DNA of 41,336 nt from an uncultured Lachnospiraceae bacterium. Its GTDB lineage: Bacteria; Bacillota; Clostridia; Lachnospirales; Lachnospiraceae. Below, in pieces: positions 17,297 through 25,703 of this stretch (position 1 is its first letter; every line of letters starts with the position of its first letter). Below the pieces are notes generated by a model that was not told the origin of the DNA, searched no databases, and worked only from the letters and a program-made list of their open reading frames with translations. The translations under genes and the position numbers were made by a program. The stretch is from contig CAMWLV010000012.1 of assembly GCA_947175175.1 (NCBI GenBank), positions 1-41,336 on the forward strand, written 5' to 3'.

Positions 17297-17737
17297 GTTG
17301 CGGCAACTGTAGTAAATGATCGCGGCTTACCGGAATTTTACGGTAAGGTGAGGAAAGTCCGGGCTTCACAGGGCAGGATGCCGGATAACGTCCGGTGGAG
17401 GTGACTCCAAGGCCAGTGCAACAGAAATATACCGCCCCGTGCGGAAGCATAGGGAAGAAGCCTGCATGAAGGCTTCTTCGAACACTTCTGTATAGCAGAG
17501 GCGTTTGGTAAGGGTGGAAAGGTGGTGTAAGGGACCACCGCCTCCGCGGTAACGAGGAGGGCACATGTAAACCCCATTCGAAGCAAGACCAAACAGGGAA
17601 CTATAGATTTGCCCGGTCTGTTCCCAGGTAGGTCGCTTGAGGCTGATGGCAACGTCAGTCCTAGATAGATGATCATTCGTGCCGCTGTGAAAATAGCGGC
17701 ACCGACATAACCCGGCTTATCGCTGCGGTTGCCGGCA
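17297..17737 (+). ncRNA. rnpB: RNase P RNA (class A type)
   Basis: The catalytic RNA that trims the 5' ends of precursor tRNAs. All conserved blocks are present in order: GAGGAAAGTCCGGGC (about 17349-17363), ACAGAAATATACCGCC (about 17421-17436), the GGTAAGGGTGGAAAGG and GGACCACCGC arms, AGCAAGACCAAACAGG (about 17581-17597), GGTAGGTCGCTTGAG, CTAGATAGATGATC and the closing CATAACCCGGCTTA (about 17706-17719). The 5' GGCAACT pairs with 3' GGTTGCC to close P1. A GCTGATGGCAACGTCAGT hairpin looks like P18, supporting class A. Ends are approximate by a few bases. Confidence 0.95.
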
Positions 17738-21326: not shown

Positions 21327-21424
21327 ATTTAATTGAATTTTAATATCTCATCTATGGCAAGTTCTATAAGTTTGTGATAAGATAAAAAATTAGGAATAAC
21401 AAACTGTTGAGGAGGTTGTTAAAA

Positions 21425-22585
21425 ATGACAAAGATAGATATTTTTTCTGGTTTCCTGGGAGCTGGAAAGACGACACTGATCAAGAAACTGTTGAAGGAGG
21501 CACTGGATGCGTCAAAGGTTGTATTGATTGAGAATGAATTTGGTGAAATCGGTATCGACGGCGGATTTTTGAAGGAGGCCGGCGTTGAGATTAAGGAGAT
21601 GAACTCAGGCTGCATCTGCTGCTCGCTGGTAGGGGATTTTGGAAGTTCTCTAAAGGAAGTGATTGAGACATATCATCCGGAGAGAATCCTGATTGAGCCG
21701 TCCGGAGTGGGAAAGCTTTCTGATGTTATGAAAGCAGTACAGAATGTGGATACCGATGCAGAGGTGGAGCTGAACAGTGCAGTAGTTGTTGTTGATGCAA
21801 ATAAGTGTAAGATGTATGCAAAGAATTTCGGGGAGTTTTTCCTAAATCAGATCGAACATGCAGGCACGATCATACTCAGCAGAACAGCGGATATCAGCGA
21901 GAGCAAATTAAATACAGCGCTTGGGATTATCCGCGAGCATAACGACAAGGCAACGGTCATCACGACACCTTGGGAAGAGCTTGACGGGAAGAAGATTCTT
22001 GAGACGATAGAGAATGCAAAGGATTTGGAGGCGGAGCTCATGGCGGAGGTCGCAAAACTCCATGATGAACATGAGCATCACCATCACCACGATCACGATG
22101 AGCATTGTCACCATGATCATGACGAACATGAGCACCATCATGATCACGATGAGCATTGTCACCATGATCATGACGAACATGAGCACCATCATCATGATCA
22201 CGATGAGCATGAACATCATCACGACCATGATGAACATGAGCACCATCATGGCCATGGAGATGATTGCACTTGTGGCTGTCATGACCACGATCATCATCAC
22301 CATCATGCGGACGATATTTTTGCAAGCTGGGGATTTGAGACACCGACTGCTTACACAAAGACAGAACTGGAACACATATTAGAGGAGCTTGAGGACGAAA
22401 AGAAATACGGTTCTATTCTTCGCGCAAAGGGCATGGTTCCGGCTGGGGACGGCACATGGCTGAATTTTGACTATGTTCCGGGTGAGGGCAATGTGCGCAC
22501 TGGCGCTGCGGAGGTGACAGGAAAAATCTGTGTGATTGGCGCACAGCTCAACGAGGACAATCTGAAGACATTGTTTAACAAGTAA
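21425..22585 (+). CDS. CobW/P47K GTPase with His-rich metal-binding insert
   Basis: A 386-residue COG0523 (CobW, P47K, ZNG1-like) GTPase. It has the Walker A GFLGAGKTT (9-17), the family metal motif CICC (63-66), an IEPSG switch motif and a C-terminal CobW_C-like domain that ends in ICVIGAQLNEDNL. Between the GTPase and C-terminal domains is a striking insert of about 85 residues made almost only of His, Asp and Glu, with a few Cys. Such proteins are metallochaperones that deliver Zn, Co or Ni. Start: GAGGAGG 9 bases before the ATG at 21425. The next gene encodes a second GTPase of the same family, suggesting joint metal handling. Confidence 0.9.
   Translation: MTKIDIFSGFLGAGKTTLIKKLLKEALDASKVVLIENEFGEIGIDGGFLKEAGVEIKEMNSGCICCSLVGDFGSSLKEVIETYHPERILIEPSGVGKLSDVMKAVQNVDTDAEVELNSAVVVVDANKCKMYAKNFGEFFLNQIEHAGTIILSRTADISESKLNTALGIIREHNDKATVITTPWEELDGKKILETIENAKDLEAELMAEVAKLHDEHEHHHHHDHDEHCHHDHDEHEHHHDHDEHCHHDHDEHEHHHHDHDEHEHHHDHDEHEHHHGHGDDCTCGCHDHDHHHHHADDIFASWGFETPTAYTKTELEHILEELEDEKKYGSILRAKGMVPAGDGTWLNFDYVPGEGNVRTGAAEVTGKICVIGAQLNEDNLKTLFNK
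22091..22192 (+). repeat. Two tandem 51-bp repeats in the His-rich coding region
   Basis: Two perfect copies (22091-22141 and 22142-22192) encode the same 17 residues rich in His, Asp and Glu with one Cys each. A third, diverged copy follows (about 22196-22255). The tract can expand or contract by slippage or recombination without a frame change. Confidence 0.92.
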
Positions 22586-22651
22586 TCATCTGGTGACAAG
22601 AGATCCGAACTGTTGTATGACTTACAGTTTCTTACAAGGATGGGAGAAAAT

Positions 22652-23584
22652 ATGAAACCCGTATATATTATTAATGGATTTTTGGAGAGCGGCAAGACAG
22701 AGTTTATATCCTACACCCTTTCACAGCCCTATTTTCAGACAAGGGGAACAACACTTCTGATACTCTGTGAGGAGGGAGAGGTTGAGTACGATGAGGACAT
22801 TCTCAAAAACAGCCGTACGATTGTGGAAGTGGTGGATGAGGAAGCGCAGATGACTTCGTCAAATCTGCTGGAGCTCGAGAAGAAGTATAAGCCGGAACGC
22901 ATTATCATCGAATATAACGGTATGTGGAACTTCAAAAACCTCAAGCTGCCGTGGCATTGGAGGCTGGAGCAGCAGATCACAACGATCGATACTTCCACGT
23001 TCCAGAATTATTATACCAATATGCGTTCCCTGCTGGCGGAGATGATCAGAAAATCCGAGCTGATTATTTTTAACCGCTGTGATGGGCTGATTGACCAGCT
23101 GAGTAGTTTTAAGAGGAATGTAAAGGCTGTGAATCCTCAGGCTGAGATTATCTTTGAGGACAAGAATGGTGAGGTAAACCAGATTTTCGAGGAGGATCTG
23201 CCGTATGACTTAAAGAGTGAGAAATTAATTCTTGACGATTATGGTTATGGTATTTTCTATCTGGATGCCATGGACAATCTTGAACGATATCTTGATAAGA
23301 CGATTCAGTTCAAGGCGATGGTGCTAAAGCCTGAGGGCAGTGAAAATGCGTATTTTGTGCCTGGAAGGATGGCGATGACGTGCTGTGCGGACGACATGGC
23401 TTTTCTGGGATATGCATGCAAGTATGACAAGTGCGGTGAGCTGACGAATAAGGATTGGGTAGAGGTGACAGCTACGGTTCACAGGGAGTTCTGGAAGGAT
23501 TACAACGGTGAAGGTCCGGTTCTCCATGCAGTCAGTGTCGTGCCGACCAAGAAGCCCAAAGATGAAGTTTTGAATTTTGCATAA
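22652..23584 (+). CDS. CobW-like GTPase fused to a YcgQ-type C-terminal domain
   Basis: A 310-residue protein. The N-terminal part is a CobW-like P-loop GTPase (Walker A GFLESGKTE at 9-17, guanine motif NRCD at 141-144) but without the CxCC metal motif. From about residue 200 a second domain begins, with FVPGRMAMTCCADD (236-248) and a WVEVTATV segment, matching the C-terminal domain of YcgQ/TIGR03943 (DUF1980) proteins, which pair with YcgR permeases and are often under zinc control. A role in metal transfer at the membrane is inferred. The ATG at 22652 has GGGAG 5 bases upstream and gives an N-terminus typical of the GTPase. It follows the His-rich GTPase by 66 bases. Confidence 0.8.
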   Translation: MKPVYIINGFLESGKTEFISYTLSQPYFQTRGTTLLILCEEGEVEYDEDILKNSRTIVEVVDEEAQMTSSNLLELEKKYKPERIIIEYNGMWNFKNLKLPWHWRLEQQITTIDTSTFQNYYTNMRSLLAEMIRKSELIIFNRCDGLIDQLSSFKRNVKAVNPQAEIIFEDKNGEVNQIFEEDLPYDLKSEKLILDDYGYGIFYLDAMDNLERYLDKTIQFKAMVLKPEGSENAYFVPGRMAMTCCADDMAFLGYACKYDKCGELTNKDWVEVTATVHREFWKDYNGEGPVLHAVSVVPTKKPKDEVLNFA

Positions 23585-23619
23585 AAAATATAGCAGGCGT
23601 TAGCCTGCTATATTTTTTT
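23583..23619. terminator. Bidirectional terminator between the GTPase gene and pyrI
   Basis: A 16-bp perfect stem (23583-23598 and 23603-23618, core TATAGCAGGC / GCCTGCTATA) with a GTTA loop and runs of A and T on both sides serves the two converging transcripts. Confidence 0.93.
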
Positions 23620-24061
23620 AGATTTTAAAATTATCTTTGTTCCCATATTTCTCTTCGCAGTATTTGCAGCGGTAAATCTCTTTCTTTTCGTCAGTCAGGA
23701 CGAAGATATGCGGAAGCTCTTGCTCGATCGATGTGATACAGCGGGGATTTTTGCATTTTAGTACATTCTTGATTTCTTTTGGAAGTGATAGCGGAAGCTT
23801 CTGCACGATCTCACAGTTCTTGACGACGTTGACAGTGATGTTGTGGTCAATGAAGCCTAAGATATCAAGGTTGAGCGTATTGATGTCACACTCCACCTTT
23901 AAGATATCTTTCTTGCCCATCTTGTTGCTTCTCGCATTTTTAATGATTGCAACAGTACAGTCCAGTTTATCAAGCCCCAGATGCTTATAGATACTCATGC
24001 TTTTACCGGCTTTTATATGGTCAAGGACGAAGCCCTCCTCGATTTTTCCTACATTTAACAT
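23618..24061 (-). CDS. pyrI: Aspartate carbamoyltransferase regulatory subunit
   Basis: A 147-residue PyrI. The N-terminal domain binds nucleotide effectors (CTP/ATP), and the C-terminal domain holds the structural zinc: Cys103-x4-Cys108 and Cys132-x2-Cys135, all present. The zinc domain contacts the catalytic subunits of PyrB to give the allosteric holoenzyme. The N-terminus is a little shorter than in E. coli (153 residues). It is 33 bases after pyrB in a two-gene operon, ending at the shared terminator. Confidence 0.95.
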   Translation of the reverse strand: MLNVGKIEEGFVLDHIKAGKSMSIYKHLGLDKLDCTVAIIKNARSNKMGKKDILKVECDINTLNLDILGFIDHNITVNVVKNCEIVQKLPLSLPKEIKNVLKCKNPRCITSIEQELPHIFVLTDEKKEIYRCKYCEEKYGNKDNFKI

Positions 24062-24094: not shown

Positions 24095-25012
24095 TTATTT
24101 GTCAACAGAATCCAAGAGTGTCAAAAGCAGTGCCATGCGCACATACACGCCGTACTTTACCTGGCGGAAATACACAGCCCGGGGATCGTCGTCGACTTCA
24201 ACGGAGATTTCATTTACGCGCGGGAGCGGGTGCAGGACGATCATATCGGATTTGGCGAGTTCCATTTTTTCTTTGTCGAGGATATAATAATCTTTTAACC
24301 TTACATAGTCCTCCTCGTTAAAAAAGCGTTCCTTCTGGACTCTGGTCATATATAAGATATCAAGTTTTGGTATGACTTCCTCTAACTTACGGACTTCGCT
24401 GAAAGAGACATTTTTCTCGCGGAGCATCTCGATAATATAATCGGGTATCGTGAGCTCTTCGGGAGATATAAATATAAAGTTGATATTTTCATAGCGTACA
24501 AGTGCGTTGATCAGCGAGTGAACCGTGCGGCCGAATTTGAGATCGCCGCAGAGTCCGATGGTAAAGCGGTCAAGACGTCCTTTGATCGCGCGTATTGTCA
24601 AGAGATCGGTAAGTGTCTGCGTGGGATGCTGATGACCGCCATCGCCAGCGTTGATGACAGGGATGGAAGAGCGCGATGCGGCTACCATGGGAGCACCTTC
24701 CTTGGGATGGCGCATCGCACAGATATCGGCAAAGCAGGAGATCACGCGGATCGTGTCTGATACACTTTCACCTTTGGCGGCAGAGGAAGAATTTGCATCG
24801 GAAAAACCCAGAACCTGACCTCCGAGGCTTAACATTGCGGACTCGAAGCTCAGGCGTGTGCGGGTGCTCGGCTCATAGAAGCAGGTAGCAAGCTTTTTCC
24901 CCTCGCAGGCGTGTGCGTACTTGGCGGGATTTTTCTCGATATCCTCAGCAAGGGTAAAGAGCCTGTCCAACTCCTCCGTGGAAAAATCAAGTGGACTCAT
25001 CAAATGTCTCAT
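24095..25012 (-). CDS. pyrB: Aspartate carbamoyltransferase catalytic subunit
   Basis: A 305-residue catalytic subunit of ATCase, the first committed step of pyrimidine synthesis (carbamoyl phosphate plus aspartate). The carbamoyl-phosphate loop STRTR (49-53) with LSFESAM, the [14 protein letters not shown] segment and the C-terminal [10 protein letters not shown] are all intact. The ATG at 25012 is preceded by AGGAGG at good spacing. Upstream is an unusual leader with a short T-rich coding region and a terminator (see those entries), suggesting attenuation by UTP supply. Confidence 0.97.
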
Positions 25013-25047
25013 AAAAACCTCCTAAATAAACAATGGTTAAAGGGAAT

Positions 25048-25071
25048 AAAAAAAGAGAAATAAATTCTCTT
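25048..25071 (-). terminator. Possible attenuator hairpin in the pyrBI leader
   Basis: On the minus strand a 7-bp stem AAGAGAA / TTCTCTT (25071-25065 and 25059-25053) with a 5-base loop is followed by TTTTT (25052-25048). It begins 4 bases past the leader peptide stop, so a ribosome reaching that stop would cover it. The stem is A/U-rich and short, so its strength is doubtful. Confidence 0.5.
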
Positions 25072-25074
25072 GTG

Positions 25075-25173
25075 CTAAATAATATTAATATGAAAATAAC
25101 AGTAAAATGTGTGAAAATGGAAATGACAAATACAACTAAAATCAGACCAAAGAGTGCAAGAAGTATCCAACAT
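25075..25173 (-). CDS. pyrBI leader peptide (putative, 32 residues)
   Basis: An open frame of 32 codons plus TAG, starting at an ATG at 25173 with a perfect AGGAGG (25187-25182) 8 bases upstream. The last 22 codons contain 37 T in 66 bases, many as TTT, ATT and TGT; the product is rich in Phe, His, Cys, Ile and Tyr and begins MLDTSCTLW. It ends 62 bases before the pyrB ATG, immediately before a stem-loop with a T run. This is the layout of the E. coli pyrL leader, where translation coupled to U-sensitive pausing controls pyrBI. The peptide itself probably has no function. A longer hydrophobic frame across the same bases lacks a ribosome site at its start. Confidence 0.6.
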   Translation of the reverse strand: MLDTSCTLWSDFSCICHFHFHTFYCYFHINII

Positions 25174-25212
25174 AACCATTTCCTCCTATTTAACAAGTTA
25201 CATGCTGTTGTT

Positions 25213-25241
25213 ATCGTATCATATCAGGGCAAACCTTTCAA
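25213..25241 (-). promoter_or_regulatory. Promoter of the pyrBI operon
   Basis: On the minus strand TTGAAA (25241-25236), a 17-base spacer and TACGAT (25218-25213) predict a start near 25206. This gives a leader of about 190 bases before pyrB. Confidence 0.75.
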
Positions 25242-25274
25242 GAAAAATATAAAATTTTATTCATAAATTTCATC

Positions 25275-25302
25275 TTGCCTTTTAATAGGGGAATGTTATA
25301 AT
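25275..25302 (+). promoter_or_regulatory. Promoter of the PH-domain gene
   Basis: TTGCCT (25275-25280), a 16-base spacer and a perfect TATAAT (25297-25302), 36 bases before the start codon. Confidence 0.65.
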
Positions 25303-25337
25303 AATTTTATTGATACAAAAACACGAGGAGAAATACA

Positions 25338-25703
25338 ATGGAATTTAAAGAGAGAAAAAGATGGTTGTTCTTCGGACTTCCATTTACTTTTACAGTATAT
25401 ACAGTCAAAGAGGATGTCATTACGGTTAATACGGGCTTTTTGAACAGGGAGGAGAATGACTGCTACATGTATAAAGTGCAGGATGTGACACTCAAAAGCT
25501 CATTAATCGAACGAATATTTGGATTGGGAACAGTCGTGTGCCATACTGGAGATGTCACATCGCCTCTGCTGTTGATCCAGCACATCAAAAATTCCAAAGC
25601 TGTAAAGCAGTTTATCTTAGAAAAGTCGGAGGAGGACAGGAGAAGACGTCGTACGCTGAATACACTGGATATTGGTGTGGTCGAGGTAGACGATGTCGAG
25701 TAA
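25338..25703 (+). CDS. Small bacterial PH-domain protein (bPH_2)
   Basis: A 121-residue soluble protein whose beta-rich core (about 10-95) fits the bacterial PH domain (bPH_2, formerly DUF304): TVYTVKEDVITVNTGFLNREEN, then MYKVQDVTLKSSLIERIFGLGTV with the typical R-x-FGLGT turn, then LLLIQHIKN. It lacks the membrane helices often found with this domain (YdbS/YdbT type). The C-terminus is charged. The stop overlaps the start of the D,D-carboxypeptidase gene by 11 bases, so the two are coupled; what binds the PH domain is unknown. The ATG has GAGGAG 8-9 bases upstream. Confidence 0.82.
   Translation: MEFKERKRWLFFGLPFTFTVYTVKEDVITVNTGFLNREENDCYMYKVQDVTLKSSLIERIFGLGTVVCHTGDVTSPLLLIQHIKNSKAVKQFILEKSEEDRRRRRTLNTLDIGVVEVDDVE

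Follow-up and report, generated by a model that had tools for sequence, protein, structure and literature searches.

The control of pyrimidine genes in Firmicutes is usually exerted by PyrR. The pyrBI operon of an uncultured Lachnospiraceae bacterium is preceded by a short T-rich open reading frame (ORF) and a terminator-like stem-loop, which raises the question whether its expression is adjusted in another way, similar to the pyrL-pyrBI system of enteric bacteria, as the first-pass annotation of this DNA had proposed. The operon was analysed within a window, i.e., the whole stretch of 41,336 nt (GCA_947175175.1, contig CAMWLV010000012.1) taken from a source assembly of 4.1 Mb that is 86.5% complete. 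According to the analysis the pyrBI leader is predicted to be a translation-coupled transcription attenuator which matches pyrBI expression to UTP, and a probability of roughly 0.7 can be given to this reading.

Architecture of the pyrBI leader

The leader and its surroundings in the window are composed of the following features:

25338..25703, divergent upstream neighbour, bacterial PH domain protein
25213..25241 (-), sigma-70-type promoter-like site TTGAAA-17-TACGAT with TG before the -10, 9/12 matches
25182..25187 (-), Shine-Dalgarno (SD) sequence AGGAGG of the leader ORF
25075..25173 (-), leader ORF of 32 codons and TAG, MLDTSCTLWSDFSCICHFHFHTFYCYFHINII; in relatives the frame is largely kept and the peptide is not
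25078..25143 (-), T-rich tract of the leader ORF, 37 T in 66 nt, proposed UTP-sensitive slow zone
25053..25071 (-), terminator-like stem-loop AAGAGAA-TTTAT-TTCTCTT with a 7-bp stem
25048..25052 (-), T-run TTTTT 3' of the stem, seven T when the end of the 3' arm is counted
25018..25023 (-), SD sequence AGGAGG of pyrB
24095..25012 (-), pyrB, aspartate carbamoyltransferase catalytic subunit (NCBIfam TIGR00670, 2.9e-106)
23618..24061 (-), pyrI, aspartate carbamoyltransferase regulatory subunit (NCBIfam NF002063, 1.9e-60)

As the neighbouring gene on the upstream side points away from it, the leader can be assigned to pyrBI only. The promoter-like site TTGAAA-17-TACGAT (25241..25213), the perfect AGGAGG with a 32-codon frame holding 37 T in its last 66 bases, and the ribosome site of pyrB, which starts at 25012, were all found as previously claimed. 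The stop codon is close to the stem-loop, as stated, with a measured gap of 3 nt in place of the 4 bases given earlier, and the five T after the stem belong to a run of seven, the last two letters of the 3' arm being T as well. The short A/U-rich stem, already suspected as the weak point of the proposal, has a predicted energy of -5.8 kcal/mol and 2 G-C pairs; a generic terminator scanner, which asks for 3 G-C pairs, reported no terminator in this stretch, the hairpin and its T-run being nonetheless present.

Promoter-like sites are more frequent in positions 24990-25400 than in shuffled sequence (7 vs 2.4 +/- 1.7), and similar sites are located upstream of other pyrB genes of the genus, leader-bearing and leaderless alike. 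Two further sites on the same strand (25115-25087 and 25106-25079, 9/12 matches each) fall within the T-rich tract, where they may have arisen by chance in such an A/T-rich stretch; if real, they could bypass the leader. These two sites and a stem weak enough to leak would suit an ordinary small-protein gene with its own terminator, pyrB then being reached without regulation by leaky readthrough or from an internal promoter; against this explanation, the 40 nt that separate the stem from pyrB yielded no promoter-like site.

Elsewhere in the window positions 21407-22585 encode a GTPase of the CobW family that contains a long His-Asp repeat (HHDHDEHCHH...) and may be a metal chaperone, followed by a second CobW-domain protein at 22613-23584, and the class A RNase P RNA (RF00010, 292 bits) is located at 17304-17735 (+).

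Distribution of the leader and the search for PyrR

The search in the genus covered 38 genomes, which yielded 32 full-length pyrB genes (that of the source included), one fragment, and weaker paralog matches only in five cases. The first-pass annotation had suggested looking for the short frame and the stem in relatives, and both do recur: a leader ORF, a T-tract, and a hairpin with a T-run are present in 20/32 loci, the peptide varying freely. In this set L144 has only a weak SD sequence and was added by hand, while L129, being the same as L128 in the upstream stretch compared, was omitted from the ORF-frame and T-content comparisons.

Eight of the 32 loci are leaderless (L090, L132, L133, L136, L139, L141, L142, and L143), with a promoter-like site and no leader terminator; L133 is counted here since the weak hairpin that the scanner gave for it, at a distance of 97 nt from pyrB, is positioned upstream of the promoter-like site. 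The leader is therefore dispensable, and the eight congeners provide a natural comparison. The remaining four loci comprise L134 with a hairpin and no ORF, L130 with another design, and two that are not scorable: L119, cut by the contig end, where only 76 nt are available upstream with the hairpin present, and L123, where the upstream sequence is unrelated. In the pyrB DNA tree of 36 rows (L147 being cut one base off) the leaderless loci form two clades with support of 100 and 99 among leader-bearing rows, which would correspond to two leader losses, given a midpoint root and several weak deeper forks.

Some individual loci deserve description on their own. In L130 (G397) the stem includes the leader SD (AAAGGGGGAA / TTCCCTCTTT followed by a T-run), with the ORF start in the loop and the ORF apparently running into the pyrB start (by eye). 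In L134 (G430) and L181 a promoter-like site precedes a terminator-like hairpin, and the leader ORF is missing; L134 looks like a leader from which the ORF was deleted. The run TATNATATCAAAAGT at the expected pyrB transcription start in L124, L131, L132, L133, and L136, leader-bearing and leaderless, is possibly involved in start-site or slippage control. A TwoAYGGAY RNA (Rfam RF01731, 50.9 bits, over the gathering score) is located at L131:1-128 (G411), upstream of the pyrB promoter-like site.

The arms of the stem vary by subclade, yet they are complementary: AAGAGAA/TTCTCTT in the window clade, A/U-extended arms in L135-L140, AAAGAAGAGA/TCTCTTCTTT in L144, L146, and L147, and AGAAGAGATAATT/AATTATCTCTTTT in L148, while the stems of L030 and L169 are richer in G-C. 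The 19-letter hairpin of the window is also the scanned hairpin in seven other genus leaders (L120, L121, L124, L125, L128, L129, and L131), and the pattern AAGAGA-N(3-8)-TCTCTTTTTT has one match in the 4.1-Mb source assembly, which is at the pyrBI leader. Predicted stem energies extend from -5.3 to -16.9 kcal/mol across the leaders, with the scanner having mis-assigned the stem of L202, which by eye starts 5 nt after the stop, so that the energy, T-content, and TTNTTT figures of this row use the wrong stem. RNAalifold returned zero consensus pairs with both MAFFT alignments, probably owing to unequal loop and arm lengths, and no conserved RNA structure beyond the terminator was found. In the minimum-energy fold of the window the leader SD pairs with the U-rich tract; this pairing was rejected, being mismatched in L121 and L126 (by eye).

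Outside the genus four more leaders (L030, L061, which has the same sequence as L162, L169, and L202) were identified in 182 distinct upstream regions of the family, i.e., in 190 rows representing the best pyrB matches out of 388 genomes with a match. The loci L100 and L018, with T fractions of 0.50 and 0.44, were excluded from the leaders, their hairpin being preceded by the end of a nitroreductase gene. A pyrB 100% alike was found in record JAIEEY010000246.1. At the class level a hairpin is present in 18 of 60 pyrB upstream regions, none of them with T above 0.40; these 60 were chosen by the highest pyrB scores found outside the family, with G571 skipped, and not at random.

Other pyrimidine genes of the genus were inspected as well. 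No such leader was found upstream of carA in 30 loci (one with only 48 nt upstream), where the scanner hairpin occurs in 2/30 with T fractions of 0.10 and 0.30 before it, nor upstream of pyrF in 30 loci (215 nt each, by eye). Therefore, among the pyrimidine genes examined (pyrBI, carA, and pyrF), the leader is on pyrBI only. The uracil/xanthine permease family ncs2 was over the cut-off only in the source genome. As a separate observation, the gene preceding pyrF (L268-L297) ends in a similar GVMQAPTL...YVN.SNI..Y block in nearly all 30 loci, L292 being different (by eye).

The PyrR-type attenuation, in which UMP-bound PyrR binds the leader and favours the terminator, is the usual form of control in Firmicutes, and in other families of the class 13 of the 18 pyrB upstream regions with a hairpin are matched by the PyrR RNA model at E 0.01 or better, a single one exceeding the gathering score. 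In the genus, however, the RNA (RF00515) was found in 0/38 genomes at E 0.001, whereas the controls B. subtilis, L. lactis, and Thermus composti were matched, and neither the window stretch nor 17 leader loci gave a match. The PyrR protein was over the cut-off in 0/38 genomes of the genus and in 4/150 genomes of the family, and the best match to the PyrR model in the source genome, the assembly of which is 86.5% complete, is a hypoxanthine phosphoribosyltransferase (TIGR01203, 3.9e-69). PyrR control was rejected for the genus on these grounds, and a PyrR-based explanation of the leader is hardly credible. The contrast with usual Firmicutes control that had been drawn in the first-pass annotation is thus borne out: PyrR-like pyrB leaders in other families of the class stand against the U-rich ORF in the genus.

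Reading frame, leader peptide, and U content

The leader ORF extends to the terminator in every genus leader (20/20), its stop being positioned from -9 to +108 nt relative to the first stem base. In 13/20, including the window, the ORF stops at the stem without crossing it, and in 7/20 (L122, L125, L128, L129, L135, L137, and L138) it reads through the hairpin. When the leaders were aligned by MAFFT with no codon information supplied, the distance between the ATG and the block just before the stem was divisible by 3 in 18/19 rows and took 9 different values (57-96 nt); the exception, L145 (73 nt), is out of phase throughout, its stop being still 9 nt before the stem. At the CCATTTTCAGAC block, farther upstream, only 15/19 rows share one phase, and L144, L146, and L147, shifted at this block, are in phase again before the stem. 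A single leader would be open by chance with a probability of 0.07-0.55 (dinucleotide shuffling), so that the weight of the ORF evidence is in its recurrence across lineages and in no single row.

The peptide behaves in a different manner from the frame. The pS/pN values of six leader pairs were 0.06/0.06, 0.14/0.11, 0.20/0.18, 0.34/0.15, 0.26/0.27, and 0.25/0.21, i.e., pN was close to pS in 5/6 pairs. Each comparison involves only 15 to 22 silent sites, and the remaining four of the ten pairs were not comparable owing to unequal lengths. Leader peptides also differ between subclades, and the peptide looks unconstrained by this comparison. These data bear on an amino-acid- or peptide-sensing attenuator, where the ribosome would stall on Phe, His, or Cys codons or on the nascent peptide: the window peptide is indeed rich in F, H, C, Y, and I, and the length of the leader is typical of such systems, but neither the drift between subclades nor the pN values suit a sensing peptide, RNAalifold revealed no conserved pairing, and the third-position T bias described below is unneeded by any peptide. 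Sensing of this kind is accordingly very improbable.

In the 60 nt before the stem the T fraction is 0.43-0.65 (mean 0.54) in 23 leaders, and the A fraction in the same stretch is 0.17-0.32. As a control, 36 nitroreductase-terminator-pyrB loci were used, and their last 60 coding nt showed no enrichment, with a mean T of 0.21 and a maximum of 0.32; the number of these loci is a minimum, as they were collected by a regular expression (37 hits, of which 36 have a terminator), with the nitroreductase Pfam-confirmed for L018 only. In the 13 window genes only 5 of 4806 overlapping 60-nt coding windows contain 31 or more T. Leader T is raised at all three codon positions and most at the third, where it reaches 0.62 vs 0.28 in the 13 window genes. 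Over the last 20 codons 318 third-position T were counted vs 208.8 expected from the peptides and the window codon usage, with an sd of 9.5 that understates the error because the rows are related. The third-position T/(T+C) ratio was 294/347 (0.85) in the leaders and 1787/3645 (0.49) in pyrB of the same loci, being higher in the leader in 20/21 loci with the exception of L125; the comparison includes 21/23 leaders, as L169 and L202 have no pyrB in the stretch fetched. Such a preference for T over C points to selection of U itself and not of pyrimidines or of a hydrophobic peptide.

A scan of the window together with L009-L088, which amounts to 1,131,112 strand-nt centred throughout on pyrB (T-rich leaders elsewhere being possible), detected 156 terminators. 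A short SD-led ORF extends to 8 of them, and in 5 of these 8, all of them pyrB leaders, T is at least 0.5 before the stem.

In 29/36 of the nitroreductase-terminator-pyrB loci (L017, L018, L024, L042, L048, etc.) at most 56 nt separate the end of the terminator from pyrB, which leaves little room for a promoter, and pyrB may depend on readthrough there.

In 26/36 of the same loci the stop codon is 12 nt or less before the terminator, so short gaps are ordinary in the family, and closeness alone proves nothing; the argument is based on the preference for U and on an ORF that is kept while its peptide drifts. The ordinary gap would be expected if the leader were an unregulated small-protein gene, as considered above for the internal promoter-like sites and the leaky stem. 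Such a gene agrees poorly, however, with a peptide that drifts while the frame is largely kept and third-position T is favoured, and with the eight leaderless loci, where a promoter-like site is present and no leader terminator is found; this explanation is improbable.

Pausing set by NusG at TTNTTT, as in tlrB of B. subtilis, would turn the leader into a coupling device that responds to translation speed or a different cue in place of UTP. According to a passage of PMC12288461, an N-T pair of B. subtilis NusG is named for T-rich motif recognition, and in the source NusG an N-T pair aligned to the N-T of the best PDB chain, residues 81-82 (hand-counted, the chain species not being named). The motif occurs in 20/23 leaders, at -28 or -29 in L089, L120, L122, L124, L125, and L131, and tlrB is a Firmicute precedent for a leader peptide combined with pausing, as stated in part of PMC6851288. 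On the other side, TTNTTT is rarer than in shuffled leaders (43 vs 62 +/- 9, the observed number being reached by 198/200 shuffles), the third-position T over the last 20 codons fits UTP demand better than a single motif, and the controlled gene acts in UTP synthesis. NusG-set pausing with a signal other than UTP is hence considered unlikely, while NusG may assist a UTP-dependent slow zone, given the N-T pair of the source NusG, although the motif count is below the shuffles.

Taken together, the sequence comparison indicates an ORF that is maintained with a drifting peptide, a stem that is reached or crossed, third-position T favoured over C, and a stem that is kept. With the three elements recurring in 20/32 loci, these features support the earlier pyrL-pyrBI-like reading. 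As an observation, the leader is a real and conserved candidate for a pyrL-like attenuator in PyrR-lacking Lachnospiraceae, with a predicted function.

Putative mechanism and known systems

On the basis of the sequence, UTP as the signal, polymerase pausing, ribosome masking, and coupling can be proposed for the pyrBI leader. Transcription would start at the 25241-25213 promoter, and a ribosome would load at AGGAGG and translate the leader ORF. When UTP is ample, the polymerase would cross the U-rich tract fast and ahead of the ribosome, the hairpin 25071-25053 would form, and transcription would stop before pyrB. When UTP is low, the polymerase would be slowed in the U-rich tract, the ribosome would catch up and, on reaching the ORF end, cover the 5' arm of the stem, with readthrough into pyrBI as a result.

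Several elements of this scheme were described in other bacteria. In E. coli pyrL, which is 49% U-requiring, abundant UTP results in termination, while under limiting UTP the coupled ribosome blocks hairpin folding (passage of PMC10135430), and ribosomes in E. coli repress a terminator nearly completely when it is located very close to a stop codon (passage of PMC4824070). In B. subtilis, a section of PMC7858274 reports that the polymerase mostly outruns the ribosomes and that terminators are located a few nt behind stop codons, which makes coupling less plain in Firmicutes and counts against the pyrL-like reading. Conditional coupling, where UTP shortage slows the polymerase and the lagging ribosome catches up, would reconcile a pyrL-like leader with uncoupled B. 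subtilis, and the B. subtilis tlrB leader indicates that a ribosome near a stop codon can interfere with a terminator hairpin (part of PMC6851288).

More tentatively, and with about even odds, it can be hypothesized that a PyrR-less lineage of Firmicutes, in which the polymerase usually outruns the ribosome, acquired a UTP sensor based on conditional coupling separately from enteric bacteria, perhaps with more than one origin in Lachnospiraceae and possibly with NusG-assisted T-rich pausing, where the peptide serves only as a ruler, and selection acts on the open frame and U content but not on the amino-acid sequence. Since the leader is sensible only if a ribosome can catch the polymerase, it would present a case of conditional coupling in a Gram-positive group. 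Attenuation of the pyrL type is already known, and its Gram-positive form in a genus where no PyrR was found looks new: among open-licence papers on pyrBI or pyr attenuation in Firmicutes, Lachnospiraceae, and Clostridia, considered by title and abstract start, no Gram-positive leader of such kind was found.

Among known systems, the trp and his attenuators likewise place a short translated leader before a terminator, but neither a regulatory codon run nor a conserved alternative pairing was found in the pyrBI leaders. The PyrR attenuator (RF00515), as predicted for the pyrBI leader, controls pyr transcription through an intrinsic terminator; in the genus, whose genomes gave no passing matches to the PyrR protein and RNA (0/38 each), a short ORF takes its place. 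The tlrB (yxjB) leader of B. subtilis combines, as proposed for the leader studied here, a Firmicute leader peptide, polymerase pausing, and a terminator, whereas it responds to a ribosome stalled by tylosin on a peptide of 9 aa that carries a conserved motif (part of PMC6851288); in the pyrBI leader the peptide drifts and the T content is kept.

The enteric pyrL-pyrBI leader shares, by its described features, the promoter, the SD-led ORF reaching the stem, the U-rich tract before the terminator, which in the genus is a predicted one, and the downstream pyrBI genes. In pyrL the ORF reads through the hairpin, as in 7/20 genus leaders; in contrast to pyrL, the peptide in the genus is unconserved, 13/20 ORFs stop at the stem, the stem is short and A/U-rich, and the host NusG has the N-T pair. 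The genus leader is regarded as analogous to enteric pyrL, with no shared ancestry claimed, and would represent a second UTP-sensing solution beside the enteric one.
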